This document shows positions 3,200 through 52,679 of a DNA stretch of 64,000 nt, in pieces. Both the position numbers and the translations under genes were made by a program. Numbering within the stretch: the first letter of the stretch is position 1; the number at the start of each line of letters is the position of its first letter. The stretch covers positions 1,178,001 through 1,242,000 of the forward strand of contig NADL03000459.1 of the NCBI GenBank assembly GCA_002205965.3. The letters run 5' to 3'. The DNA comes from Kappaphycus alvarezii. Taxonomy: Eukaryota; Rhodophyta; Florideophyceae; Gigartinales; Solieriaceae. The notes beneath the pieces were generated by a model. It made no database searches. It was given only the letters and a program-made list of their open reading frames with translations, and was not told where the DNA came from.

Positions 3200-5014
3200 A
3201 TACCTCAGGAAGGAAATGTAGCATCCACAATAGTTGACGCTTGTTCCACTTCTGGGAGTTCCTTACACGCCGGTTCTTCCCGCTTTAAACGCTTTGAGGG
3301 CGGCGAGTCTTCCCCAGAAGAGAGAATGATGACCTCGGAAACTTGATATTGTCCCGCGGGATGATCATTAGAAGTAACCTGCGAAGATTCCCTACGCGGA
3401 CGAGTCTCTCCCCGCCTTTCTTCTAATTCGGGGTTCTGGGCTTAACGCCTGACAAAGAAGTGCTTGAGAAGAACCTCTCCCTGGTTCTTTCCGTTGGCTC
3501 ATCTTGCCGAGCTGACGAAGAGACGTCGGCGAAAGTACGCGCCTCGCAGATGTCCCCTCGTCCCTCAGGGCCCCGACCTCTATTTGCGAAGGAACCTCCA
3601 GATGCCGCGCCCGACGGGCGGTCCTGCCGAATCGCCCTGCGACAACGGGCCTCTGCCTCATCAATTGCCTGATTAGACCACGGGTCGTACCAAATGAAGT
3701 CTCGCGCCGCCCCAAACCGTGATCGGCAATAAGTGTAGCGCTGAGCGCTGCCACGCTGACTGTCTCTCCGCTGTACCCGCGTCCAGTCTGCTTGATCCAC
3801 CACTCGATTTAAGACTAACCAATCACCATACCCTTCCTCACCAAGGACAACTCGCAGCACGTCCGGACCAAGTCGATCGAGCGCATCACGGATTCAAGGA
3901 GGTATCTACCACAGCCGATAGGTATCGTATACCTCCCAGATGACGAAGCAGACCACACATATGGTCCAACCGGTACAGTGTACAACCCACCAAGCGGAGG
4001 AGCTATTCGCCAATACATCAGAGCCACGATATGCAAACACTGGAGGAAGCTCGGCCCATACACTCCACGGAACCTCCCACTCTTCCCACCAAGAAGGTAC
4101 AGCAATGCACCGAGAACGCAGCCCCAAAGGTTTCCAGCATTCTGCCTCCGGTTGGTGCTACTGGATGAAACAGCCGAACTCGGACCGGCAATGCCATTCG
4201 TACCGCACCGTGCTGGACCAGAATGAGAGATCTGCCTTCTTTACCTTGCGGTAATCATGGAACAACACTTGTTCTGCCCATAAGACCGCCTGTGAATGTA
4301 CATCGGCCGTAATGCCCATCTCGGTCCAGTTGTGAACCACCTCCTCCATCCTACGCAGAGACTGCGCATACTGGTGTTCCCCAGGAGAACGGCTACACCA
4401 CAGGTCCAGCGGGCGAGGACCAACGTCAGGAAATAAGGGGCCGTTGAGCAACCGCAAGTTGTCAGCCAAGCGTTCAACCTGGTCGCTCCGACGGAACTGA
4501 CGGGGAGGTAGTGGCACCCACCTACCCGCCCTCCACCGACGATAACGCGTGCCCAAGTCAGCGGAGTGCATCGAAACTCGCGCCCCCACTCGAATGACCG
4601 CAACGCATTGGACGTTATTCCCCCTGGTAGTACCAGCCGCGACCCCTCCCACCGCATGTACCTCCGCATACACTGGTCGTCCTGAAACTGGCAGACATCA
4701 AGCCACGGAGCACGCGAGAAACGATAGGGTTCCTCCGACATCAGACGGAGCTCATGCTCTTCTTGGATGGAGCGCGGGAATATCCCAAACTGAAAAGCCG
4801 CTTGCAGTGAATATGAAGGAACGGGCTTGTGAGAAGATGAAGGGGAACGGGCGAGAGAAGACAGAAGAGGGATTGGGACAGTGTGATCTGTGGAGCTGGT
4901 GCAGGTAACGGTGTACAAAGTGGGATGGGAACTCTGCGAATCGGTGAACGGCGAAAAAGGACCCAAGCTATGGCAACGAATATGCCGAAAAAGGAACCAA
5001 GGGTTGGATGCCAA
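3200..5014 (-). pseudogene. Unrecognised broken coding region, Gag-like
   Basis: Protein-like sequence of biased, GC-rich composition runs on the minus strand through several frames. One frame spans about 5014-4560 (LRLMSEEPYRFSRAPWLD). A second spans about 4600-4158 (QVERLADNLRLLNGPLFPDV, then WAEQVLFHDYRKVKKADLSF). A third covers 4105-3815, and a fourth covers 3860-3423 (RDFIWYDPWSNQAIDEAEAR, then Arg/Gly-rich and Glu/Ser-rich tails). At least three frameshifts are needed to join them. The order helical N-terminal part, tryptophan-rich middle, basic Arg/Gly tail would suit a retroelement Gag. I do not recognise a family, and it could equally be a decayed host gene. Confidence 0.35.
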
Positions 5015-5242
5015 AACGAGGTTTATTCATTTTTGGTGATGTTGTCGTAACTACTATATTCGCCGATTCGGCACCCGCGCATGCAGTGACCTACCCATTT
5101 GGGGTCTTGCCCCTTCCCGTGGTTGTAATCTCCCGGAGGTGCGTCGGAGTACCGCAGCTTACAGTTATTGCGATTATATAACTGTACGTCAATAAAACAG
5201 GCGAACGTGGAAAACGTGTACAACCCCGATTTAGGGTTGATA

Positions 5243-5262
5243 TTTGGGGAGGCCTCCCCAAA
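5243..5262. repeat. 20-bp perfect palindrome
   Basis: TTTGGGGAGGCCTCCCCAAA is exactly self-complementary. It lies immediately beside the tRNA-like element at 5278-5345 and may belong to the same short repeat. Confidence 0.85.
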
Positions 5263-5277
5263 AATGGGGAGACCCCG

Positions 5278-5345
5278 CACCTCGAACCCGGAACCTTCAC
5301 GCCAGGCTCCCGAGGCACTCCCACCTGGGCCAAATGGCCCAAGTT
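5278..5345 (-). repeat. tRNA-like (SINE-type) segment with A and B boxes
   Basis: On the minus strand TGGCCCAGGTGG (5321-5332) fits the RNA polymerase III A box. About 40 nt further on, GGGTTCGAGGTG (5278-5289) fits the B box. The intervening sequence does not fold into a proper cloverleaf and the T stem does not pair, so it is not a functional tRNA. A tRNA-derived SINE or a tRNA pseudogene is the likely explanation. Confidence 0.35.
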
Positions 5346-5579
5346 GGTACTACAGTAACCAAAAAAGGGAATATTTTGAATATCGAAAAAACCACGGTAA
5401 GGCGCGCTTAGCTAGCAGTATAGTCGGATACTGCAGCGGACACCCGTTTTACTGATGCCATAAAGTTACGACGCTCAGAAGGGAAATATGTAGTGAAATT
5501 GGCACACATACTGTACTGCCATCGGCAGAGCTAATTTTGGTGATCTTTTTTTGATCTGATTCACCGCTAACCAGCAGGC

Positions 5580-5599
5580 ACTGTACTGTACAGTACAGT
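5580..5599. repeat. Palindromic (TACTG/CAGTA)n pentamer cluster
   Basis: ACTGTACTGTACAGTACAGT is a perfect 20-bp palindrome made of the pentamer TACTG switching to its complement CAGTA at the centre. The same motif recurs at many places in this window. It lies in the part of copy 1 that is absent from the sister copy at 11.8 kb. Confidence 0.8.
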
Positions 5600-6062
5600 A
5601 AGGACAATTTTCTTTTGTCGCCCACTATTATTTTTGGTACTGTATCCTCACCCGATGGGGCTTGAGGGTTTGCAATCTGGACCACTCGGCCCCCAAATGG
5701 GACCTGATATTTTCGCAAGTGAAAGGAACTTATTGGGCCAAGTGTCAACTTTGCTTATCTCTAACTTGGCTGACCCTAACCTCACTCACACCGCCGTCCT
5801 AGATAACCCTAAAATAGTTAACTAGTATTTATACCTACCTGGCCACTAGGGCCCCAGATTAAACAGCTACCCGGTGTTAGCTCTGAACTTGACTCCCAAC
5901 TTCCGCCTTTGCAGAAACCTTGCCAACGGCACCTTTGGCTATAGCCACGTTTATCCGCACGGGTCTCCCTTTCTATTCCCCCTCTCTATCCAACATTATA
6001 CTACCCCTTTTATTGTTTGTTTGTGATATTTGCTCACGCTTGGCGCCCCGGACTCCGGCGTC

Positions 6063-6072
6063 TATATACAAA
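6063..6072 (+). promoter_or_regulatory. TATA-like box in retroelement LTR, copy 1
   Basis: TATATACAAA in the context GCGTCTATATACAAATAGG, matched by TATATATAA at 12342-12350 in the second copy. Conservation between diverged copies and position ahead of the hairpin leader support a promoter role. Confidence 0.5.
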
Positions 6073-6085
6073 TAGGAACTTCGAG

Positions 6086-6139
6086 GTTGTCGTTGGTGAC
6101 AACATCCTAATCTCCAAAGGAGATAATCAGCAAAGCTGA
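6086..6139 (+). other. Three adjacent hairpins in retroelement leader
   Basis: GTTGTC-gttggt-GACAAC (6086-6103), ATCTCC-aaa-GGAGAT (6110-6124) and TCAGC-aaa-GCTGA (6127-6139) follow one another closely. In the second copy only the first stem is kept, with a different loop (GTTGTC-gtctgt-GACAAC, 12365-12382). The other two are eroded there. This could be a structured 5' leader used for packaging or translation of the element's RNA; the function is inferred only. Confidence 0.5.
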
Positions 6140-6482
6140 CCCAATACTACATCTTCTTCGTCCTGTATTACACCCCTGATGTCTACGGTTCTTTGGAATC
6201 GACCCATACCAAGTTTCTAGCATTCCGCGGACCAGGGTCCGGCCTTACAACCCGGAGGACAAGTATACCGTCCATCCGCCCAAGGAATTACCCTCGTTCT
6301 TCCAACCCAGTTCTCCTCGCCGTCGGCGGGCTGTGCTACTGCATCGCAGGGTGCTTAAAGAGAAAGAGGGACAGCGAACACCCTGTGAGTCTTCGTGTCT
6401 GTGTGTTGGATTTCTCATTGTCTGACGGTGTTCCGTTCCTAGACGAGAAGAACTGCGCACCGCGCATAGCACTACATTTCGG

Positions 6483-6780
6483 TTAGTAGGCCAACAAACA
6501 GGCAGATCTAATTCTTGTTGAGGTCATTTTAGCTCGTATTATTTTTTGAAGCCTCCATAGAGAGTATGCGTTTGTGATGCTCTGCAATTTTTTTGGCGTT
6601 CCCGTGCTTTTCTTTTTGCCATAAGTATCCATATTCTTGAGGTAGTTGAGGAAAACATTCTTGCTCCTTCCGACGTGTTTGGCAATGCTGCGAGCGCTAG
6701 TCCCAATAAATGCCAGTGCCGCATTTTCGCCGTTTTCTTCTTCCGTTAGTTGCTTTGCTTTTCCCGTTGTTTCAGGTAAG
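6483..6780 (-). pseudogene. Tc1-like transposase N-terminal relic
   Basis: A minus-strand frame reads a helix-turn-helix start resembling Tc1/mariner transposases: LTEEENG, then GTSARSIAKHVGRSKNVFLN, YGKKKSTGTPKKL and LQKIIRAKMTSTRIRS. The order HTH, Gly-Lys linker (GRPR-like in intact relatives), second HTH is the same as in the nearly intact copy at 27-28 kb, but divergence is large. Nothing catalytic follows; the relic ends where the LTR copy begins. It cannot be the missing N-terminus of the next relic, because on the minus strand the order would be wrong. Confidence 0.55.
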
Positions 6781-7499
6781 GGATGACTCTGTTTTGATGT
6801 TGTTGTGTTTAAGAGAGGTGTTCGTGACACAAACAAAGGATTTTTCCTACATTTCTATCAATTTACAAGAGCGCAGTTGCATTTAACGAGTGCTGTCCCT
6901 ATCTTTTTTCACAACTCATATTCATAAAGAACTGAAATATTCACTTCCAACTTTTATTCAATCACTTATTCGTTGTTTTATTAATTTAATATCTAGTTAT
7001 CGATAAGTTCCGTGGAAATTTCACGTTTCGCGCCACTTAAAGTGAACTTATCGGGGTATTCGGGGTATCCTAAGTTTTTTGACAGCACAGTAGTACCAAC
7101 CCATGCGTTTCGGCATTTTTTGAAGTACTGCAGCTCCTAATACTGTACATAGAGTATTATAACTCTAAAAATTAGCTTGTGTCCATGTAAGTGTGGCAAC
7201 ATCAGTAAGATCACCCTCGATATAGTGCCAAATTTGGAGAAATGGATGTGACTGGGACTAATCGAAGCGTTGACCTGTAGTTAGAATGTTCACAACCGTG
7301 TTGAAATGGTGTTGCACATCCCAATTGACCCCTTCTGAAAATATAGGGCCATTTACAATCAAAGCAATAAAAGCAATCTCTATAAGCACAACTAATCGAG
7401 CGTATGACCCCTCGCTTAACAATAACTTCAACAACACGAACTCACACAGACGCAACATTTTACTTCCGAAGTTATAACTGCAGTTGCTTCCAACAAGAA

Positions 7500-8290
7500 A
7501 AAACAATTCTTAAGGTCAGCAACAGTACAAAAATGACGCTTAATGAGGTAAAAATTCCTCTGTAAGACGCTCCGAAGGGTTTCAATTGGGTTAAAATCAA
7601 GCGAGCGGCCGATTACTTCATCAAACGTATACCCTTTCCCGTAAATCAGTCCATATATTTTTTTCTCACATGAATAAGGGCGTTGTATGGCTGAAAGTTT
7701 CAGTTAATTGCCGTAAAATCACCCTCTTTGGTAACAAATTCTTTTCCGTTGACTTGACGTAGCTTTTAGATGTTTGTCGTTCTATCAGGACTTGCGAATC
7801 TCAAAATTATCTCTAGGAAAAGCCTAACACACCATAATACTACACTATCTCGCTTTTACGTAATAGGTGCTCAGTAAATTCCCTTAAACCATACTAATAG
7901 CAGCGTGTTTCATATTTTTTATCGAAAGTGAAACTTTTCCATCAAAAAATACCGCATGGGACCATTTTTTCACGGCCAATGTGCTTTGTTTTGGTTTCCA
8001 ATTCATTTGAGCAACTTTGTGAGCTTCAGTGAGAGGTGCGGCGCTCTTTACCTTTATGAAGCGCAGTTTACTGTTATGTTTTGATAGTGGCGGCCTGAGA
8101 TACAAAAAAGTCTAAATTGAGCTTGTCGCGAATCACCCTATATGTTTTTTTCCGCTCGGAGCCGCCCGAACCAGTTTCCGCTCTGCTTTCTCGGGAAATT
8201 TTAGAGCCCTAACAGATCTGCTGATCTCTTTATGAATCTGCGGAGCGTCATTTCTGCTCCTGCCCACCTATTGGCAACTGCCGGAATACT
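7500..8290 (-). pseudogene. Tc1-like transposase catalytic-domain relic
   Basis: Reading the minus strand through several frames gives the family landmarks in order. They are AAPLTEAHKVAQMNWKPKQ with W-SHAVFFDGKVS (cf. V-FSDEKKF, first catalytic Asp), then FQPYNALIHVRKK (cf. FQQDNAxIHxS, second Asp), then RSLDFNPIETL (cf. SPDLNPIENxW, catalytic Glu) and the VYxxGRxF-like tail RNFYLIKRHF. The second Asp reads Tyr (TAC) at about 7690. Many stops and frameshifts show an old copy. No terminal inverted repeats were found. Confidence 0.6.
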
Positions 8291-9006
8291 GAGACATTCC
8301 CCTTTGTAGGCGAAAATGTTTCCACTCTATAGCTCGAAGTGATGTGTACCTCTCGACATTTATGGATGCTATTCGACTGTATGTGGTGTAGGGGAGAATA
8401 GTGGAGTCTGTTTTTCGCTTATATTTTTTGAATTTTTCCCCTGGTTCAAGAGATTGTTATCCTGCCGTATCCATTCAGGCGCGGTTTATTTGATACGATG
8501 GTCTTTGATTAGTCTTTTATGATTTTGGTATAAATAAAAATGTCTTCTTTCGGGTTTTTTGTACATTTGATTTCAAATAATAGATTTATTGATAAATTTA
8601 ATGGGCACATTTGGAGATATATAAAACTTATAGGTGTCGCACAAAAACAAGCGGCACTGAACTATAGGCAAATTCGGGTAACTCTTACCGCAGTTGTCGG
8701 AAGAGAAAAGTGACGGGAAAAAATAATCTTAATCGTCAATGTAGCTGTTCAAAAACAGCTTGAGCTGATGATTATTAAATCGTGAATTGTTATAGTACTG
8801 TAAAGTACTTTGTTTTGTGGCAAATGACTAGGATCTAACCTTTTTGGTACAGAACATTGCATTAGGTTGCTGTTATGCACTAGTTGTACGTACAGTTTCG
8901 CTCTCTCTGCCCCCTTCGCTCATCTGCTCTTTGTCTGCTCTTCAGTCTACTTGAATGTACAAGCTATCATCATTTGAATTTGCTCTGTTTAGAGAACAGC
9001 GACAAG
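8291..9006. other. Intergenic, no recognised feature
   Basis: AT-rich sequence without convincing coding potential. It includes one TACTG/CAGTA-type motif near 8795-8810 (TAGTACTGTAAAGTACT). Confidence 0.4.
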
Positions 9007-11427
9007 ATGTCCACCACGCCAATTGCAGACAATCAAGGCCAGGCAAATCAGTTGAAAAATGGCTCCTGTAGTGAAGCCCTGATTCTCTCCAATTTTACGG
9101 AAAACAGGATGTCTTCCATGTCGCAGGTGTTGGCTGGAATCATCGATAAAAAAGCTCCTGGTAGGTAGATTAAGATCTCTTCGGTACTGGTATGGTTAAA
9201 TGCATCCCTGAGTTTTCCCTACAGCTGTCATGTTTTGGTCAGATCTTCGCTCAATTACTACCGTGCAATTAAAGTTGAGGAACATATGGGTAAGCTTCAA
9301 AAACAAGAGTGCTTTATGGCCATTTTCAATTTTTTTTCATTTTATTACACCAAAGTACTGCTCTATACTTTGTTTTTGAAATGCATATAAATAATTCTAT
9401 CGCTCAAAGCCCCTCTCCAACCATACATTTTAAGTTTATCTTTAGAACTCGAAGAAGGAGGCTGATAAATTGAAAATAAAACGTTGTCTGGACGAAACCA
9501 TGAGTATTGGCAACGTCTATACCTAACAGTCGTCATGGACATTGAACACCATCTCGCTTCGGACCTTGACGAAGACAACCCCAGCCTTACCCCAACTTCA
9601 AGCATCCCAACTACAGACTCTACTGAAGAGGGTTATTACGACCCCGACGATGAGCTCATCGCCCCAATCCCTCTCCTATCACCAACATAGCTCTACTTCC
9701 CTCCGAAACCTATAACCACGCCTCCCTAGCACCTCCTCCCGCCCTTGCCAATTACGAATACTTGATGGAATCATGCACATGCGACCCTTCGTGTTTCTCA
9801 CCTTATCTCAAAGCCATCGCCAACAAGTTCAAGACCTTTAATGAAGTAAATAAGGTTGCGTTTGTTCAAAACGTGCCATTTGCAGTAGCTGCCCCTCCTA
9901 ATGTGACTAATAAGTTTCTACCAGAGATCCGTGCTCCTAACATAAAGAGAAGACGTCGACAAACAGCGAACCATCCAGGAAGAAAGACCATTGCCTACGC
10001 TATTAAGAGCAGAGAAGTATGCAGAAGTGCATTTACTGCAGTCGTTCAGTTATCGGAAGCTACTATTCAACGCCACGCGATCCAAGTTGCTACATTCGCG
10101 GTTCCATCTATATACAACACCAATCATAGCACGTCGAGAAAGGGGAAGTTTGTGGTACAAGGAACTGTTGTTGAAGCTTTCTAACATCAATTGCCTCTTT
10201 GTATGCTTTAAAATGCCCTCTAGGCCGTAAATCTACACAAGAATCGCCTTTGCGTCTTTTATCTAGTGATTTTACTCGATTCAAAGTGCATGATATGTAT
10301 GTTGCTAAATGGGAATGCATAATGTAGGGGTTAACGACCATGGACCCTTCATTGTCAAAACCGGAACAGTCGCTCTCAAATAATTTACTCTTAAGGTACT
10401 GGGTCGAAGAGATGCCTCAGCTTCGTATCAACAGTAGCGGAAGCGATCTTTGCGGCACTAGCACTGCGTTAAATAATATTCTATCTACAAAGCGGCCTAC
10501 GAATGTTCTCTATCAAAGCTCAAAAACATTTCTGTTACAGCACTGTAGAGAAGCTCGTTCGTAGCTCAGGCAATATAAAAATGCCATCAAAACGCTTCAA
10601 GTGGTCAAGGTGGGTTCATAAATTTAGTTTTGATTTCGCAGAGAAAATCTTGTTGCCCAAGCTGCAATTAAAGCCTGGACAACTTCGCTTAATAACTGGC
10701 CTCAAGTTTGACATCTTCGGTGTTTCATGTAGCAAGCTATCTAGGAATTATATCTTCGGTCTACCTGAAGGGCCACTGGCCGAATGAAAAGACGGTAAAC
10801 GTTTTCATCTCTATGTTACACTTCGTTTTAGACAAAATCCTGGAAAGCTCGGCAATTGCTGTATTGGCATATCTAATACTGCCTGCAGACAATTGCAGCG
10901 AGCAGAATAAGAATCAATACATTCTATAGTATTTATCTCAGAGAGTTATTGAATGTTAAGAGGACAGTATTCCTCTTCAGTTTTTGATATCTGGGCATAC
11001 AAAGAATGTCTGTGATGGCGCCTTCGGACATATCAGAAGAAAGTTTCGGCAAAGTGACATAATTTGACCTGATGGCATGATGAAACTTATTGACAATACT
11101 GCACACTCGACATTTGTCATTCCATCAACGAAGGTGGAATGGTTCAATGGGAAACGATATTTGGAATATTGATTTACCATAACCACAAAATTGAACCTAT
11201 CTGAAGGGCATTTATTTTCGTTTTGCACTGTAAGCAAAGGGACACTTATAATGAGGAAGTTATGTACTTCTCTTGAAGAGGATTGCTTTAGTTCATTGAA
11301 ACGGCATACTTTAGTTTCTACAGTACTAGTTTCTTTCTCCAGCAAAGATGTAAGGGTTAGGTTAAAGCTCCAATGGGCGCCTTTGAGCTCCGTCCCATCA
11401 CCGAAAGAAGGTGACAGAAGGGAGTAA
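9007..11427 (+). pseudogene. Relic of an ADNC..QNKN transposase-like gene
   Basis: Core 9764-11427 carries, in order and across frameshifts, the landmarks of a widespread but poorly characterised eukaryotic family (I believe annotated as DUF7869; name from memory). These are a CTCDPSCFSP start, a basic RRRRQT patch and VCRSAFTAVVQLSEATIQRH. Next come SSDFTRFKVHDMYV, SSGSDLCGTSTALNNIL and FSFDFAEKILLP with FDIFGVSCSK. The last are PADNCSEQNKN at 10882-10914 and SGHTKNVCDGAFGHIRRKF from 10990. The ADNC...GHTK-D pattern resembles an RNase H-like (DDE-type) catalytic core; that is inference. The last block (10921-11427) stays in one frame with three stop codons (TAA, TGA, TGA). A short ORF starting MSTTPIADNQG at 9007, followed by a GTAGGT donor at about 9161 and a CCCTACAG acceptor at about 9223, may be its first exon. 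Confidence 0.6.
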
Positions 11428-11766
11428 CTGACACTCAATGTACTTAACAGGTACTATTCCGGCAACAGCGAGATTGAGGAGCGATTTTTTGGTCAGGGGC
11501 AGAGGGCTTTACAGAGTAGTCATTTAGTGACCAAGAGATTTGTCATAACTTTCGAATGAAAAACGGCATGAACAAACCGTAAAACGTATGAGGTTTATCA
11601 CAGTATGCCCTCAGTAAAAACTTTTTTGGGTGTTTTGCGTAATTTTTACAAAATGTGCCATAACTTTCGTTCTTCAAAAAGGCCATAAGGCACTCTTGCT
11701 TTTGAAGTTTACCCTTATTGGACAAGCGTTGGGGTAACCTTAATCGGCACCCGTCCCGCAGGTTTC
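11428..11766. other. Intergenic, no recognised feature
   Basis: Between the relic above and the second LTR copy. Short minus-strand frames here show no family resemblance. Confidence 0.35.
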
Positions 11767-12756
11767 TGTAGTGCAATTGGCACTCACACTGTACTGCCAC
11801 CGGCAGAGCTGATTTTGGTGATCTTTTTTGATGTAATTTTTTTTATAGGCCTTACCATTGCCATCTGTAAGTACTACAATGTTCTGTAAGGGAATTTTTA
11901 TCCACAAACGTCGGACTTGGTACTGCATGTCCCCTCGAATCGGCCCAAGGGCGTGTATTCCGGGCCACTCGGCCCCTAACTTGGACCTGATATTTTCGCA
12001 GGCGAAAGGCATCTGTTGGGCCAAATGCCGACTTTAATCATTTCTAACCTGACATTGTCCTTATTTACCCCGCCATCTTATATAACACTAACCTAGATAA
12101 CTATTATTTATACCTACATGGAAACTACGGCCCCAGAATAAGCAGCCAACCGGTGTTGGCTCTGAAATAGACTCCCAACATGCCGTCTTTGCAGCAACCT
12201 TGCAACGGCAACTTTGGCTACAGCCACGTTTATCCTCTCTGGTCTCCATTTTATTTTACCCTTTCTTCCCCATATTTCACCATCCCTTTCATTGCTCGTT
12301 TGTGTTATTTATTCACAATTAGCACCCAGGACTCCAGCGTCTATATATAAATAAGAATTTCAAGGTTGTCGTCTGTGACAACATACTAAACTCTAAAGGA
12401 TATACTCAGCACGGCTACCCCACTCCTACATCTTCTTTGTCTAATATTGTACCCTTGGTGTCTACGGTTCTTTGGTCTCGATTTCTATCAAGGCTCTAGC
12501 ACCCCACGGGTCTCGACTTGACCGTAAAACCCAGAGGACAAGTCTACCGTCCAGCCGTCCAAGGAATCATAGCCGCTCTACCATCCCAACTTCTTCTTGC
12601 CGTCGGCGAGATGAGCTACTACATCGAAGGGCACTTAGGAAGAAAGAGTGACTGCGAACACTCTGTGAGTGTTGATGTGTGTGTGTTGGTTTTCTCATCG
12701 TCTAACGGGATTCCGTAGCTAGACTAAAACAACTGTGCATCGCGCATTGCACTCCA
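11767..12756 (+). repeat. LTR/leader repeat, copy 2
   Basis: Direct repeat of 5489-6476 (~990 bp). Well-matched blocks include GGCACTCACACTGTACTGCC, the segment around GGACCTGATATTTTCGCA, the TATA box at 12342-12350, and the hairpin GTTGTC/GACAAC at 12365-12382. The following Gag-like start is broken here by stop codons. Unlike copy 1 it runs on into a plus-strand gag-pol relic, so this copy is the true 5' end of that element. Confidence 0.6.
12342..12350 (+). promoter_or_regulatory. TATA-like box in retroelement LTR, copy 2
   Basis: TATATATAA in the same position relative to the hairpin as in copy 1. Confidence 0.5.
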
Positions 12757-15350
12757 GATCCTCATGACCCTGGAGATGAATTTGTACAAGGATGAGGACG
12801 GTAAGACCACCTCTGTTTAGATTGTGCACAAAGAAAACACTGCTGACCGATACTAAGCAAGGTGCTGAAGTCGAGTGTCCCTCCACACTCTCTATACATG
12901 AGCTAAGCTTCGTCGGAGAAGACTGGGCACAATGTGACAATGCGTTTCAGGGACTAGGACAGGAGGTTAATGGGATTATTGGCCTTTTTGGCAAGATTAA
13001 GTTGAAGAATATCGACAGATGTCCCAAATCTACAATTTGATCCAACAAGAGAAGTTGCACTACATGCAAAATACCCTTTCAACTGACCCCCAGGAATTAC
13101 TACCTGGACATCTTGTATAGCTTTACGGAAATTTTCTAACAGGCCCTTGATATAGTTGGAAACTCGTGCAACTCCAATATTCGGCAAAACAATGTGAAGA
13201 ACTTACTTAAGTCCCCTCCAATAGCCAAGTTAGTTAATGGCGGTTTACGTGCAAATGAAGCTCTCAATAAAGGTTTAAAAGGCCGTTATTAGATTGATTC
13301 TCAAGGTACCCTGCTCTAATCGAGATAATGCGCAAAATAATTGATTTTTCTCCCATTTAGTCCCATTATATATCTGGGCCATTAAATCTTTTTCTAGTGT
13401 CTTGACCCATGGAATCAAATTTTAGCAGTTGCAAAGCTAGAACGAGGCTGTTTTGCAACTCAGAAAAGATACTGAAGTCGCTTGTATGAAGATTGACATC
13501 TTTTCTCAGTTCAACAGCAAGAATATAGAGTCTTGTTATTCAGTGCAACTTCGTCGACAATGAGGACCCCACGCCGTTTCATGGTGAAAGTGTTGACACA
13601 GGTGTGCAAGGCTCCGTTATTAGAAAGTAACAAGCCTTCGCATACTGCCACTTCGCACAGAATACAGCGCCCCTTGCTACAGTCAATCGAAACTGCAATT
13701 TAGGCAACTTTGGCTACTTTTGCACTGGAGTTGTCAAGTTCCGGATTTTCCTGTCTACCACTGGATTTATTGAGTTGAATTTAGCTGTAATTGATTATTA
13801 TGTACCCCTTATTCTAGGATTGGAGATCTTGACAAAGTTCCATGCAACCGTGGACGTTGGTAAGAAGCTCTTTTGCGCCTACAAAGGACATTTTTCTGTT
13901 CTAATGGTTCACAACGGGGGGCATCTGTGCATCAAATAGCTTGTTACAGATATGTTTTACAAAATGAAAGATTCATGCAGTGTGCATAAGAAATTTTATT
14001 ATCCTGAGTCACAGCGTCTCTACTCTGTTCTCCGCCGGGCTAGTCCTGATCAGAGTGACCCGGATAAATTCAAGAAGTAGGAGGTAATAGGGCCTTATTA
14101 TGACGTTGTCCAACGTCTCAGTTCAACAAATGGTCTTTTCAGGGCAATTATGGCTAAAAGGGGATATAATGTTAAACCAAGTCCTCTTTCCTCGTCCTTT
14201 TATCCATTGAAAGTATTACTGTACCACATTATGTTAGCACGCACACGAATTTCAACGCCACTGCATTCTTTTCTGGAGAATGAGCTCAAGATGTTTTGGG
14301 TCGTGTCAGGAGATATGGTATATGCGTTATGTTGGTCACCCTACTGAACTGCATGCTGATGTAGGTACATAGTCCCTATCAATGCTGTTCATCGTTGAGT
14401 ACAAGCTGGCCTCGGTCAAGTTTATCCTGTCCGGAGTTGAAAGATGCAACGTAATATTCATTGTATAAAGTTAACATGAGTACCTGTTGCAGATATTTAG
14501 GAAGTTTAAAGCAGGTATACCGAGACTCAGCGAGGAAGAAGCATTTTAATTCGCTGTCAAGGTGTTGAATGATACAGTTGATCCCCATGGTGTCGTCTCA
14601 AAATTGATTATATTCGGAGTGATGCCCCGTATACTAGTGACTTTGGTCAACTTTCCAACTGAATGAAGGGTATAGAAACTATTCAAAAGTTCAGGCGTGA
14701 ACTTGCAAATTCTATAGCCGAGAAGCAAATATGTAGAGCTCTTCGCCATAATTTACCTGCCGCAGAATAGGAAGGCGTAAAGATATGAATAAAATTAATT
14801 GTCTACCGCGGAGATCTCTAGGCATGGAATGTCACCTACCAAGTGTTGGACGTCTATGAAAAGATCTTTCACGTTAATGTGAACGGAAGTAATGGCTAGA
14901 TTTCTACTGACGCTTTGAAGGATTAACGCATCATTAAAGCAAGTTCAAGTAACCGAGGGCAAGCAAGAGTCAAAGCAGAAGAAGAAAATGTCGTTCTTTA
15001 TCAAGATGAAAAAGGTACAGAAATTTCAATCACCGGTGAGATCGAGAAGCTCATGGTCAAAAATAGTTCAACCAAAATGGAAGACAAGGCAGATCCAAGT
15101 GAGTCGCTGTACTTCTCGACCTTTTTCACAGAAGTGATCCATCATGAAAACAATCTGTACGGGCCATAGATGTTTGGGAGTAATAAGACCGCCAAAGTCC
15201 AAAACATCTTGCTGTATTCTACAAGCCGTCGATTATGGCGATGTGGGCGAAACTGCCATTGCGTCAGTGGAATCATTGAACTATCCCTTAAGCATATTGG
15301 TACCGCAGAACAGAATCCTGAAGCTATATATATCGCACAAGTTCAACGGT
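12757..15350 (+). pseudogene. LTR retrotransposon gag-protease-integrase relic
   Basis: Plus-strand relic following LTR copy 2. A Gag-like piece at 12900-13037 reads SFVGEDWAQCDNAFQGLGQE. A clean 66-codon stretch at 13739-13939 has the flank of a retropepsin-type protease: STTGFIELNLAVIDYYVPLI, LGLEILTKFHATVDVGKK, then NGGHLCIK. After it KKFYYPESQRLYSVLRRASP with SPDQSDPDKF and YYDVVQRLSS resembles the linker/zinc region preceding integrase. ETIQKFRRELANSIAEKQIC and ICRALRHNLPAAE resemble the post-integrase segment seen in fungal and oomycete retroelement polyproteins. Stops and frameshifts are frequent. No reverse transcriptase follows, so the element is truncated near 15.3 kb. Confidence 0.5.
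13739..13939 (+). pseudogene. Retropepsin-flank segment of pol relic
   Basis: Uninterrupted frame in which DYYVPLILGLEILTKFHATV matches the usual 'D-x-x-x-PLLLGLD-x-L' strand that ends aspartyl protease domains of LTR elements. It is followed by a Lys/Cys stretch and GGHLCIK. The catalytic D-[ST]-G triad is not visible upstream in this frame, so only the C-terminal half of the protease survives. Confidence 0.5.
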
Positions 15351-15857
15351 AAAAGGAAAAAGGACTCTTCATACACAATGCACACAGTATTAGCCATCGT
15401 TCTGTTCGAATACTTACTTCCCATTACTGAAAAAGTGCTCTGTGTCGTTGTTTTTTCGTCTCTTAGTCAACTCACTCCTTACGCTACTGCTCTATATAAC
15501 CACCTAAACGTGCATAAGCTAGGTTCGTCGAACAAAAGCGAACACCATTCACAATGCCGCAGTGCGTACGTATTGTTGACACAGAGACTACATTATCACG
15601 CCATAATGGCTCAAGTGATATGTCGACATCTCTATTTCTGTTTCCTGAGTACCAAAGGCAGACAAAAACACAGTCCCACGACAAAGATGAAATACATCCA
15701 TTCAAATGTCTATTGTGACAAAAGCAGCCTTCACCAACCACCCTTGTGGTATTATGCGGAGATATTTCGATGTGGGATAACACAAATATTCGACACATAT
15801 GCAAAAAAACACGCAACAAAGAAAACTCAATCAATTCACACACAAACAAATCAATAG
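15144..15857 (+). CDS. Unrecognised 237-codon open frame
   Basis: Uninterrupted frame of 237 codons, rich in His, Ser, Tyr and Lys, with no domain that I recognise. An overlapping frame contains MPQCVRIVDTETTLSRH from about 15553, which superficially resembles the first exonuclease motif of DnaQ-like proteins, but no further exonuclease motifs follow. It lies directly downstream of the gag-pol relic and may be decayed retroelement sequence. There is no evidence of expression. Confidence 0.2.
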   Translation: MKTICTGHRCLGVIRPPKSKTSCCILQAVDYGDVGETAIASVESLNYPLSILVPQNRILKLYISHKFNGKRKKDSSYTMHTVLAIVLFEYLLPITEKVLCVVVFSSLSQLTPYATALYNHLNVHKLGSSNKSEHHSQCRSAYVLLTQRLHYHAIMAQVICRHLYFCFLSTKGRQKHSPTTKMKYIHSNVYCDKSSLHQPPLWYYAEIFRCGITQIFDTYAKKHATKKTQSIHTQTNQ

Positions 15858-26736: not shown

Positions 26737-26918
26737 GTGACTTTTTAGTGAAGTGAAAACTGTAATTACTATTATACCGTAATACCTGTGCAACGTTTCT
26801 GCAGATATGGCGCGTATAATACTAAAATTTGAATGCATGTGTAGCACTGCATCAAACGTCCCCTCATCTTTCGAACTACGTATCCCAACCCGTATCCTTA
26901 CCCCTACTCCTACTCCTA

Positions 26919-27033
26919 CAGTGCGGGACAAAATGATAGCCCACCCCTATCTTTGAGGCATACTCCCTGAAAAAAAACATCCATTTAAACAGAAAAACTT
27001 GCCATTTCTATTTATTTCTGATGCCGACTCTGC
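26919..27033 (+). repeat. Left terminal inverted repeat of Tc1 element
   Basis: Pairs with 28358-28470. Shared blocks include CAGTGCGGGACAAAATGATA, TTTGAGGCATACTCCCTG and CATTTAAACAGAAAAACT. Confidence 0.9.
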
Positions 27034-27157
27034 AATTTAAACGATTCTCAAAAAGGGCAATTACTTTTTTCTTTTCATGAAAAAGGCTACCTGGGAGGCT
27101 GACAAAAAGATAGCACATTACCATTTTACACGGAGTCCAAAGCGAGCCAGTCCGGCT

Positions 27158-28156
27158 TCAGTAGTCCGTCTTCTTAACACATCTTTCTAATACTTGCTTC
27201 ACACGTTTGGGCATGCTTCTGAGTAAAGACAGTAGTTATTCTGATGATATATCCTCCCATTCTTTAAGCACAGTATTTCTAAGCACCCCCACATTACAAA
27301 ACTGCCTCCCATTCGCGTATACCTTCCTCGTCAGCAGTCCCCAAACGTTTTCTATAGAGTTGAGGACTGGACTTCTAGCGGGCCACATCATAACCTTAAT
27401 ATTCTTCTCTTTCAGCCAATTCTTCGTCGTCCTCGCAGAATGAATTGATGCATTATCTTGTTGAAACTCCCATAAATATGCGTGATTCTCAGCAGCAAAC
27501 GGTAGCAAATGGTTCGCTAATGTCTGCGTATACCTCTCAGCGTTTTGGTTCCCTGAAACAATAGCCAAACTCGACTTTCCAGCCGCAGAAAATGCACCCC
27601 ATACCATCAATGGTACTCCCCCCATCTGCCGCTTCGATAAAACAGTTTCTTCCCCTCGTAAGTCATTCCAGTAGGACTGGAACCCGTCTGGCCCATCCAT
27701 ATTAAATTTCTTCTCGTCTGAGAAGACCACTCTTGCCCAGTCTTTGTGGCGATAGGGAGCATGGTCTACTGCCCATGTAAGACGATTAGCGATATGTTCG
27801 GAAGTGAGAGGGGGACATCGCTTAACTTTCTGAAACTTTATAAACGGGGCACAGGAAAGGACTCGGCGGGTCGTACGCTTGGAAACTGCGAGTTGAAGGG
27901 TCTTGTGAATGTCTCCAGCAGTCACATTTGATTTCTTTGCCTCTCTCAATATACGGCGTTCGGTGGCTGGCGACAATTTCCGCGGCCTTCCCGGTGACTT
28001 TTTCTTTCCGTACCCCTCCTTATTCTTTATGTAGGCCGCCACAACCTTTCTCGAGCGCTTGAGCTTAACAGCAATGGAACTAATCGTCCACTTTGCATCT
28101 GAGTATGCTGCAATCTGGGCTTGCTCAGTTTCGGTGAGTTGCGGACCCTTTCCCAT
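27158..28156 (-). pseudogene. Tc1/mariner DD34E transposase with one nonsense codon
   Basis: From ATG 28156 the frame is open for 306 codons to TAA at 27236-27238. The same frame then runs on for 25 more codons, LLSLLRSMPKRVKQVLERCV to KKTDY, ending TGA at 27158-27160. That tail (SMPKRVxxVL) is the normal Tc1 C-terminus, so the TAA is a premature stop in a 332-codon gene. Seen in order: a helix-turn-helix (residues ~8-48), a GRPR linker (56-59), a second helix-turn-helix (~63-100), D147 in VVFSDEKKF, D234 in FQQDNASIH and E269 in SPVLNSIENVWG. There are 34 residues between D234 and E269. The last motif normally reads SPDLNPIEN, so two side positions have changed. The truncated 306-residue form keeps all three catalytic residues. 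Confidence 0.9.
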
Positions 28157-28357
28157 TTTGGTGTGACCAATTGACCGCTGCAGTGCCTCGAAGGGGTTCG
28201 TGGTGAAGTACTGTGGACGTTTAATGGCAAAACCGCCTTGCGTTTTGGCGCAAAAGTGCTGTTTCTGTTCAGTGTGCTATCTTTATGTCAGCCACCGAGG
28301 TAGCCTTTTTTGTAAAAGATATAGAAATAATAGCTTTCGGAAGGATTTTTCATGGAG

Positions 28358-28470
28358 GCAGAGCCGGCATCAAAATAAATAGTACTGGCCAGTTTTTCTG
28401 TTTAAATGGAAGTTTTTTTCAGGGAGTATGCCTCAAAGGTAGGGGTGGGCTATCATTTTGTCCCGCACTG
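28358..28470 (-). repeat. Right terminal inverted repeat of Tc1 element
   Basis: Partner of 26919-27033; ends ...CATTTTGTCCCGCACTG followed by TA. Confidence 0.9.
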
Positions 28471-28542
28471 TACCCTTACCGTTACCTTACTCTTATCCCC
28501 ATCTTTATCCCTATCCCTATTCCTCACAAACTGCTTGACGCG

Positions 28543-44786: not shown

Positions 44787-45746
44787 CTACTGCTGCACAT
44801 CCTTAAGGTAGGTTTGCACATAGGTGTGCATTGCAGAGAGGGGAAGCGGGTCGAAGGAGCCCAGGTCGACGGAGTGGGGATGGCCGGGGATGCAGAGGAC
44901 AAACTCGATCATGGGAACGGCAGCTTGGCGGAGGAAGAAAGACTTATCTTGGCGGCATCGAGAGCCAGTGAGGGCGGTGGAGCTTGGTCCGATGTGTGCC
45001 CCGGACCTGACACGGGCAGGTGCTGCGTCGATGAGACTTGCGGCAGCGGCGCCGTGGAGGAATGGTTCGATAAGTGAGAAGCCCAGGCCACCAGGTCGGA
45101 AGGGCAGCGCGGCCTGCGACCATGCTTCGTCCAACAGCGTGGTACCATGAAGCTCCGTAAAGTACGTCCGTTGAAGGTCGTCAAAAGCTTCGGCAGCGGT
45201 ACGGGCGTGTGTCGGATCGGAAAGTTTGAAAACATGGTCTACTACACATACCGACGCGCCGACGCGATGCATGTGATAGCGTGTGCGGGGGTCGGCGAAC
45301 TTGTGGAGCAGCTGGAGAGTGCAGCGGGAACTTTCAATTTTTGCGTGGAGAAACGAGTCGGTGAACTCCCGGTTGCCCAGGGGCGCCCCCAGAAGTTCAA
45401 ACCAATCTGAGGAGCACTCCTGCCGGGGGAACTCACGGAAAAAGGCTTCGCGCTCTGGTCGTCGCACAGTTGGCCAGAAGATGCGAGTCTTGTCCGTGTC
45501 AACGTGCAGGCCGTAGGCAGGTCTCTTGTCCCGTAGGATCCGAAGGGCACGTCGAAGGCCGGGCAGGGATCCCATGAAGGTGCCGTCGTCAGCATACCAC
45601 TGGTTCAGGATGATACCTGTTTCCCCGGCGATCCGCCGGATGAGTGGCTGGATCGTGAGGGAGAACAAGAGCATGCTGGGCGGGTCGCCTTGCTGAGTGC
45701 TTTGAGCGCTAACGATGGTCGTATGGTCATGATTCGAAACGATCAA
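44787..45746 (-). pseudogene. LINE reverse transcriptase, C-terminal half
   Basis: Open for 319 codons. It begins near STQQGDPPSMLLFSLTIQPL, the RT motif 'Q-G-D-P-L-x-x-x-L-F' (the usual Leu-Gly is Pro-Ser here). It then has QWYADDGTFMGS with the catalytic Y-A-D-D at residues 51-54, and GLHVDTDKTRIFWP (motif D, conserved Lys). The thumb region follows with FELLGAPLGNREF and LPFRPGGLGFSLIEPFLHGA, phrases typical of LINE thumb segments. The frame closes with HTYVQTYLKDVQQ, lacking an endonuclease domain. The first palm aspartate is missing upstream, so the fragment cannot work although its frame is open. The intact frame suggests a fairly young insertion. Confidence 0.75.
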
Positions 45747-45830
45747 CTGAGATTGCGTTCAGCGCCTCTCGCTATCGTTTCGGATGCTGCCATCCAGAGG
45801 GAGGGAGGGGGGTTTCACTCACTGTATTGG

Positions 45831-50044: not shown

Positions 50045-52679
50045 GCTCAGGGATTGTTCATACAAATGCTGCACCGTACAAACCTCAGTCTAATGGTAAT
50101 GCGGAACGTATGAATAGGACTATATTGGAGTAAGGTCTGTACGATGCTTTCAGAAGCTAAAATAGATAAGAGGTTCTGGGCAGAGCCAGTTAATCACGCC
50201 GTTTACCTACAGAACTTGGTTCCTTTTGGACTTCGAAGCCTTTATGCAGAGGTGATGCTGCCAATGGAAAGCCGGATGTTTCTCATGTAAGGATCTTTGG
50301 TTGTTTAGTGCAAGAGCATGTGCCGGGGAAACTCCGTAGGAAGCTTGAATACAAAACTAAACGGTTCATTCTTATTGGACACATAGGACCAACTGTTTCT
50401 AAATCATTCAATCCAATCAACAAGTGTTTTCAAGTGATTCGACATGGTCGATTTGATGAAAATATTTTTCCAGGTTATCATGAAAACCCAATCTAAAAGG
50501 AAGAACGTAACGAGCTGTACTATTCTGATCCTGATATCAGCCCGGAAACAGAAGTAGACACAACCGATTCAACCGGATTAAGTGAATCAGATATCAATAG
50601 AACACTTTCACCTTCGAGCTTGGAGCATATTACAATTGAGGACTCAACTCCAGTTCCAGACCCATATCCACGGCCTATAAGTCAGCGCAGGGCACCAGTT
50701 AGTTACAGACTCGTAACGAAATCCGATACAGACATTGACATGCCAACTGTAGCTGATCCACTGAAGTCCAAAGATGCCGAGCATTGGCTTGAAGCCATTC
50801 ATACAGATCTAGAGACACTTAAAAGTTATAGTACTTGGGAACTCGTAAGACTCTCAGAAGGGGTTAATGTACTTCCTTCAAAAATTGTTCTTAAGCTTAA
50901 GAAAAATAGTCACGGGACAATTAACAAATACAAGTCACGACTGGTTGCTTTAGAATGCTTTCAAAAGGATTAAGACTTGAAACTGACATTCTCTCCAGTT
51001 TTCGAATTCACGACTGTTCGTGTTGCCTTAAAGATAGCGGTTCTTAAGAACTACAATAAAGCGCAGGGCACCAGTTAGTTACAGACTCGTAACGAAATCC
51101 GATACAGACATTGACATGCCAACTGTAGCTGATCCACTGAAGTCCAAAGATGCCGAGCATTGGCTTGAAGCCATTCATACAGATCTAGAGACACTTAAAA
51201 GTTATAGTACTTGGGAACTCGTAAGACTCTCAGAAGGGGTTAATGTACTTCCTTCAAAAATTGTTCTTAAGCTTAAGAAAAATAGTCACGGACAATTAAC
51301 AAATACAAGTCACGACTGGTTGCTTTAGAATGCTTTCAAAAGGATTAAGACTTGAAACTGACATTCTCTCCAGTTTTCGAATTCACGACTGTTCGTGTTG
51401 CCTTAAAGATAGCGGTTCTTAAGAACTACAATATACATCAAATGGATGTAACCGGGGCATTTCTCCATGGATCTCTGGAAAGCCCTATATACATGAGGCT
51501 AACAAAAGGCTTTGAAGACTACGAGAAGAGGAATAAGTCTGAAAGTTGCGAAAAATCATTTATGGGCTCAAGCAAGCACTCAGAATTTGGTTCGAGCACT
51601 TCACTAACTGTCTTACAAAATTGAAGTTCCATACCCTAAAAATATCAGACTTCATTTTTACATAGACGGGAGGGAATGCTATATTTTTTCTAATTGTCTA
51701 TGTATACGACATGCTTATCATGGGAAATGATCGTATTCTCATTGAAAGCGTTAAGAAAGGACTCATCCAGAGCATAAATGTGCAATACATAGGACCAGTA
51801 AGCGATTTTCCTGTAGTTAACATCATATTGAAGCCTGGCATGTACATTCTGTCTCAAAGCCATTACATTGCCAAAATACTCGATATGCATGGAATGAAGG
51901 AATAATCCCTATAGACAGATTATTGGACAGCTGCTTTACCTAGCCTCACACACGTCCAGATATTTCTACAGCGGTGGGAGTGCTAAACAGGCAGGCTTCA
52001 GATCCATGTCTAGCTCATTGGACTGCATTGAAACGAATTTTAAGGTACTTGAAGGGAACGGTTAATCATTGCTTAATTTTGAATCCGATCAACATAGTAC
52101 TAACTGGGTTTGCAGATGCGGACTGGGCGAACAGTGCTGACAGAGCATCTATATCTGGAAATCTGTTGCAACGGGGGGAAGTCTACCGTGTTTTGGAAGA
52201 GCAAGAAGAAACGTAGTGTTGCACTTTCCACGACAGAGGCGGAACATGTAAGCTTATCTGCTTTAGCTCGTGAAGTAACTTGGATGCGTGGTATATTAGA
52301 AGAAATGGATACGGCACAGCATACGCCAACAGTAATATACGAGAACAATACCTGTTGTATCAATTGGACCTCCGATATAGGACAGTTTCAAAAGAACAAA
52401 CATGTGGACATTAAGTTACATCACGTAAGGGACTTAATTAAGGGTGACTTTGTATCGGTCAAGCATATGGACACAAATCGCATGCTGCCGGATTTACTTA
52501 CGAAGCCTCTCCATGGACCAGATTTACGAACTCTCCGTAATCATCTCAACATATCCAGTTACACTGCGAGTAGGGGAGATGAACATCCAGGAATATCAGA
52601 AGTATCTCAAACGTCAACCCGTTCTACTCGTAGAAGGGATGTTGAGGATGGACGATATCTGAACGGTCTGACTCAGTAA
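50045..52679 (+). pseudogene. Ty1/copia pol relic (integrase-RT-RNase H)
   Basis: Integrase core end: GIVHTNAAPYKPQSNGNAER and MNRTILE (50050-50130). Next comes PDVSHVRIFGCLVQEHVPGK and a variable acidic spacer. The RT starts LEAIHTDLETLKSYSTWELV and VLPSKIVLKLKKNSHG with YKSRLVAL, then TFSPVFEFTTVRVALKIAVL. A 375-bp tandem duplication intervenes, then HQMDVTGAFLHGSLESPIYM (catalytic Asp kept) and LIVYVYDMLIMGNDRILIES, where the YVDD box reads YVYD. RNase H follows: TGFADADWANSADRASISG, ALSTTEAEHVSLSALAREV, KHVDIKLHHVRDLIKGD and LTKPLHGP, ending at TAA 52677-52679. Several stops and shifts. No LTR pair was found. It sits alone in an AT-rich, gene-poor setting and is much closer to the family consensus than the gag relic at 2.4 kb. 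Confidence 0.85.
50685..51433 (+). repeat. 375-bp tandem duplication inside copia RT
   Basis: Copy 1 50685-51058 and copy 2 51061-51433 run from GCGCAGGGCACCAGTTAG to TAAGAACTACAATA. By eye they are identical except for one missing G in copy 2 (CACGGGACAATT versus CACGGACAATT). Both carry the same TAA in GATTAAGACTTGAA. The short junction ATAA separates them. Confidence 0.9.

Follow-up and report, generated by a model that had tools for sequence, protein, structure and literature searches.

In the parts of the published accounts drawn on here, Sola elements have DDD (three-aspartate) transposases and 4-bp target duplications and are found in bacteria and metazoans; their terminal inverted repeats measure 11-1124 bp and most elements 2-9 kb (PMC10741241). 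The duplications made by Sola2-type elements follow the pattern AWWT, among them ATAT, AAAT and ATTT (PMC3627910). The target duplication is TA in Tc1/mariner elements (PMC5199201) and TTAA in Kolobok and piggyBac, and purine-rich ends occur in Kolobok (PMC9587614). We analysed a stretch of 64,000 nucleotides (the window) from the red alga Kappaphycus alvarezii (contig NADL03000459.1, positions 1,178,001 to 1,242,000), in which a preliminary description had noticed the relic of a transposase-like protein. Window 9288-11714 is, we think, probably one dead copy of a DNA transposon, 2.4 kb long and moved by cut-and-paste, whose DUF7869 (PF25273) protein would be a DDD transposase, and which belongs most likely to the Sola superfamily, as a Sola2-like element.

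Boundaries and target duplications

The features of the element are listed below, with the evidence for each in brackets.

9284..9287, no strand: left target duplication, ATAT (sequence and copies)
9288..9329, plus strand: left terminal inverted repeat, GGGTAAGCTTCAAAAACAAGAGTGC... (inverted arms; boundary from copies)
9469..11516, plus strand: transposase relic (majority of nine copies; as the window itself reads, the first ATG is at 9535)
9774..9794, plus strand: CTCDPSC, N-terminal cysteine motif (a weak match, lying collinear with C.C...C in bacterial relatives)
10011..10034, plus strand: REVCRSAF (a weak match, lying collinear with RPVCR..F in bacterial relatives)
10629..10643, plus strand: FDFAE, first candidate catalytic aspartate (hhalign to bacterial WDFAQ)
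10774..10791, plus strand: HWPNEK motif (sequence)
10885..10914, plus strand: ADNCSEQNKN, second candidate catalytic aspartate (PF25273 match and hhalign)
10993..11025, plus strand: GHTKNVCDGAF, that is GHTKN (10993-11007) and CDGAF (11011-11025), third candidate catalytic aspartate (PF25273 genome match)
11673..11714, plus strand: right terminal inverted repeat, ending ...GAAGTTTACCC (inverted arms and copies)
11715..11718, no strand: right target duplication, which today reads TTAT, against ATAT at the equivalent place of the twin copy C592 (sequence and copies)

Comparison of genomic copies gives an element of 2,427 bp, limited to 9288-11714 because the copy matches end there and the inverted repeats sit there. 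The inverted arms span 46 nt (9284-9329 and 11673-11718) and are 87% complementary. With a longer query, the genome matches of seven of the eight other copies stop at 9267-9290 and 11713-11738; that of C592 runs on past both element ends into the flanks. The true limits of the element differ from the extent first proposed, 9007..11427, and the possible first exon (9007-9168, with splice sites at 9161/9223), from which the gene had been taken to be intron-bearing, falls upstream of the left terminus and outside the element. The segment 9007-9287 matches C592 at 89%, and the other seven copies match the window only from 9267 or later; being found only with C592 among the eight other copies, it is therefore part of a larger duplicated segment and not of the element.

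At the equivalents of 9284..9287, ATAT stands in C592, C679, C4, C665, C784 and C813, and AAAT in C688; C530 has no clear reading there. The flanking tetranucleotides are identical in three of the nine host copies (C679 and C665, ATAT/ATAT; C688, AAAT/AAAT), or in four of nine provided that the last end base of C592 (ATAT/ATAT) is counted as substituted. Two more are one base off (the window, ATAT/TTAT; C4, ATAT/GTAT), and in C784, C813 and C530 the duplications are not cleanly readable. All host sites with clean duplications are ATAT or AAAT, matching the AWWT pattern.

Genomic copies and their decay

The search of the host genome (336 Mb, 884 contigs) returned 17 matches, namely the window itself, eight near-full-length copies (80-88% identical), six short pieces (68-74%) and two rows that represent the opposite termini of listed copies. 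The nine copies are 81.1-89.9% identical to one another in pairs and lie 7.0-10.9% from their majority sequence. Common flanks within 1 kb occur in three of the 36 copy pairs (window/C592, C784/C813 and C679/C4) and in none of the other 33, so that the nine copies represent six insertion places.

Reading frames are broken in all nine copies, with 5-10 in-register stops in each. Differences at codon positions 1, 2 and 3 amount to 9.43, 9.53 and 8.28% in the first coding stretch and 9.43, 8.35 and 8.11% in the second, and the three remaining stretches, outside the coding ones, differ by 8.95-9.94%. Such equal divergence over codon positions is the pattern expected for transposon copies and is neutral decay; together with the stops, it therefore reflects copies of one source that decayed without selection, and not a selected gene family. 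Ends, target duplications, repeated copies and dead-copy decay thus bear out the earlier suggestion that the family is mobile. The absence of repeated copies, which by the preliminary description would have spoken against mobility, was not observed, but none of the nine copies found is intact.

The transposase relic

Two long open frames, of 386 and 360 amino acids, are present in the nine-copy majority sequence; they overlap at about 10438-10624 with one frame change, and DUF7869 lies in the second. The next longest frame has only 158 amino acids and is on the opposite strand. The frame change may reflect an intron or a frameshift, or it may be an artefact that stems from the age of the nine copies. 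As reported before, the motifs lie in order: CTCDPSC, REVCRSAF, FDFAE, HWPNEK, ADNCSEQNKN, GHTKN and CDGAF were recovered on the plus strand, where they are spread over two frames of the window.

Judged by profile comparison, the relic is a real remnant of a PF25273 (DUF7869) protein, beyond chance. This Pfam domain spans 192 positions, names no function and has a curated cut-off of 26 bits. The unbroken window piece 10696-10929 scores 21.4 bits (E 2e-4), under the cut-off, and the other eight window pieces run against Pfam gave no DUF7869 match; window 10792-11253, read through four stops, reaches 60.1 bits in the genome profile search, above it. Two of five sister-copy pieces also exceed the cut-off (C784, 41.9 bits; C665, 37.6 bits), and the three others have no DUF7869 match; the proposed Pfam comparison accordingly found the domain in both the relic and sister copies. 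Against an alignment of bacterial relatives, hhalign gave E 7.9e-7 for window 10696-10929, E 6e-6 for 10473-10787 and a weak match (E 0.009, probability 4%) for 9654-10184, the pieces aligning in collinear order.

Other DUF7869 proteins in the host genome

The PF25273 profile search gave at least 144 matches in the host genome at E <= 0.001 (187 candidates, 150 scored) and none in 14 control genomes. By eye, two kinds of protein can be told apart among 30 fetched host loci plus the copies. The kind found in the window has FDFAE..., ADNC.GQNKN and GHTKN.CD. The second has DGADQ..., an LDNCTRENKN-like motif (at some loci one or two letters differ) and, wherever the frame is intact, GHTHADID; it was seen at L090, L092, L093, L094, L096, L106, L109 and L117, of which L109 and L117 are adjacent stretches of one place, and no element ends were found at these loci. 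The end search at the 30 loci covered only about 1.5 kb of flank and yielded 12 inverted-repeat rows for eight loci but no proven ends. The best inverted repeat, at L115, has 30-nt arms and flanks that are not AWWT; L110 has a single GGG end, the locus being cut at the opposite side.

Bacterial relatives and their elements

A degenerate DNC..QNKN pattern matched 61 stretches in bacterial and archaeal genomes, 12 of them with GHT near the motif and 49 without. One GHT-bearing locus, L083, was excluded by eye since its context does not fit. Eleven bacterial loci carry a related protein, seven as open frames of 635-668 residues and four as shorter ones. The seven include the isolate Desulfocicer vacuolatum DSM 3385 (L049, gene at 4675-6645), whose candidate catalytic aspartates are D355, D434 and D476. 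Their record titles read Deltaproteobacteria/Desulfobacterales, Thiomargarita, Nitrospirales, Legionellales and others; most of the records are metagenome-assembled, and these labels may be wrong. The family had been described as best known from animals, which was not confirmed, and bacteria also have it. The PF25273 core is common to the relic (stops read through), the two sister copies and all four bacterial relatives tried, which score above the curated cut-off; compared with the Pfam entry, the domain here sits in elements with defined ends. The second and third aspartates are invariant in the 11-row bacterial alignment, and the first nearly so.

Inverted repeats with G-rich starts flank eight of the 11 bacterial genes; none were found around L038, L072 and L086. 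In the left ends of the eight bacterial elements the first AAAA begins at base 15 or 16; in that of the window element it begins at base 12. AWWT accounts for 15 of the 16 flanking tetranucleotides, and both flanks are identical in three elements (L036, AAAT/AAAT; L070, AATT/AATT; L057). The unequal flanks of the other five (L045, L049, L066, L073 and L089) are A/T-rich, for example ATAT/ATTT, with ATGT once. Each of the eight bacterial genomes searched gave one match. No relative appeared in the viral contig scans, where one pattern locus, L009, was rejected as a phage-like contig with no DUF7869-like protein among its open frames of at least 120 amino acids; nor were relatives of L049 found in plasmids and phages, or the window DNA in phages.

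Predicted fold and proposed mechanism

Models of one bacterial relative place the three conserved aspartates on a predicted RNase H-like core, and the structural neighbours listed are integrases and DDE transposases. The predictions thereby lend support to the RNase H-type core suggested previously and to the proposed likeness to DDE transposases. Foldseek with the whole model gave no match at E <= 0.001, with Argonautes, UvrC and NurA frequent among the best 50 rows. In its predicted core and three conserved aspartates, the protein resembles retroviral integrase cores and the DDE transposases Mos1, Metnase and IstA. It differs from them in its AWWT duplications, in the 41 residues between the second and third aspartates of L049, and in having no significant sequence match, as one sister piece searched against solved structures returned a single chance-level row (E 0.7). 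DUF7869 is likely a transposase core, with a candidate DDD triad.

The predicted core, taken with the common ends and the 4-bp duplications, points to cut-and-paste transposition by the DUF7869 protein. The element would have encoded one protein of roughly 650-680 residues, as suggested by the two overlapping majority frames, with a cysteine-rich N-terminal part that is probably DNA-binding, followed by DUF7869 as the RNase H-like catalytic core. The putative triad would comprise the aspartates of F/W-D-F-A, ADNC..QNKN and GHTK...D. This protein would bind and pair the inverted ends and cleave at the GGG termini, with the triad holding two metal ions for the reaction; the ends would then be joined to a target rich in A/T at positions staggered by 4 bp, and repair would leave the AWWT duplication.

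Classification and alternative explanations

From its anatomy, the window element is likely a member of Sola. Like Sola elements, and the Sola2 type in particular, it combines 4-bp AWWT duplications with a candidate DDD transposase and occurrence in both bacteria and eukaryotes (PMC3627910, PMC10741241), and its inverted repeats of about 42 bp and length of 2,427 bp are within the published ranges (PMC10741241). The dictyostelid Sola2-type elements, as far as the available parts of these sources describe them, have shorter inverted repeats (12-21 bp) and carry a Fanzor1 gene, of which we noticed no sign in the window element, although no search was aimed at it (PMC3627910, PMC10741241). The parts of PMC4455052 and PMC5199201 consulted were of no help for placement within Sola.

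A possible but clearly less probable alternative is that DUF7869 elements form a superfamily of their own, common to bacteria and the host, whose AWWT duplications converged with those of Sola or are only remotely related to them. Several points weigh against the Sola assignment and for this alternative. Pfam assigns DUF7869 no function, NCBIfam had no match to any of three bacterial proteins tried, and among the open-access papers searched we found none that names DUF7869 or its motif strings, or ties them to Sola. The earlier statement that the mobility mechanism is uncharacterised thus holds for the family name, but not for the anatomy, which fits a published superfamily; it is the agreement in candidate triad, AWWT duplications, size, terminal repeats and bacterial occurrence that favours Sola. 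If the separate lineage were real, it would still offer a similar end design (a G-rich start, then AAAA), AWWT targets and open bacterial genes for biochemistry.

It is very improbable that the DUF7869 protein is a passenger and that the inverted repeats are those of a Tc1/mariner or piggyBac/Kolobok element. A Tc1/mariner gene does occur elsewhere in the window (27236-28276), ATAT contains TA and Kolobok ends can be purine-rich (PMC9587614, in part). However, the duplications AAAT (C688 and L036, AAAT/AAAT) and AATT (L070, AATT/AATT) are neither TA nor TTAA, and TTAA was found beside the ends of none of the nine host and eight bacterial elements read. The 386- and 360-residue majority frames are moreover by far the longest, the second with DUF7869, and this gene recurs in the bacterial elements whose ends are similar.

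That the copies instead represent a host gene family that has decayed, or are segmental duplicates, as the three flank-sharing pairs, the pairwise differences of 10-19% and the broken state of all nine might suggest, is hardly credible and already contradicted by their common ends, which are sharp at the inverted repeat within unrelated flanks (33 of 36 pairs) and bear 4-bp duplications, by the flat codon-position divergence and by the abundance of the domain in the host genome.

Neighbouring features of the window

Direct repeats of about 1 kb lie at 5487-6477 and 11767-12754 (76% identical over 5489-6473 and 11767-12753, the ends having been extended by eye). They start with TGTAGTG and end with CACTACA or CACTCCA, and look like the long terminal repeats (LTRs) left by an old retroelement. 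Near the second repeat, two pieces tried against Pfam had no match. The relic and the second LTR-like repeat both lie in a 9-kb segment, window 6479-15421, of which C592 has a counterpart with 87% identity. A Tc1/mariner-like element at 26917-28472 has inverted repeats that are about 200 bp long and match at 84%, and between them a 346-amino-acid open frame (27236-28276) with DDE_3 and Tc3-type helix-turn-helix domains. A reverse transcriptase fragment occupies 44787-45758 on the minus strand (PF00078, E 1.4e-5; its 25.4 bits fall short of the curated cut-off, which is 29.6). At 50684-51433, a 375-bp side-by-side direct duplication is 99.7% identical and therefore young.

Significance

A domain without a Pfam function gains a likely role as a transposase core, together with element ends, a preferred type of target and a predicted fold. 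As similar bacterial elements have open, full-length genes, the mechanism is testable in a simple system. For genome annotation, it is better to mask DUF7869 genes, with their 144 or more matches in the host genome, as transposons than to include them in the host gene count.
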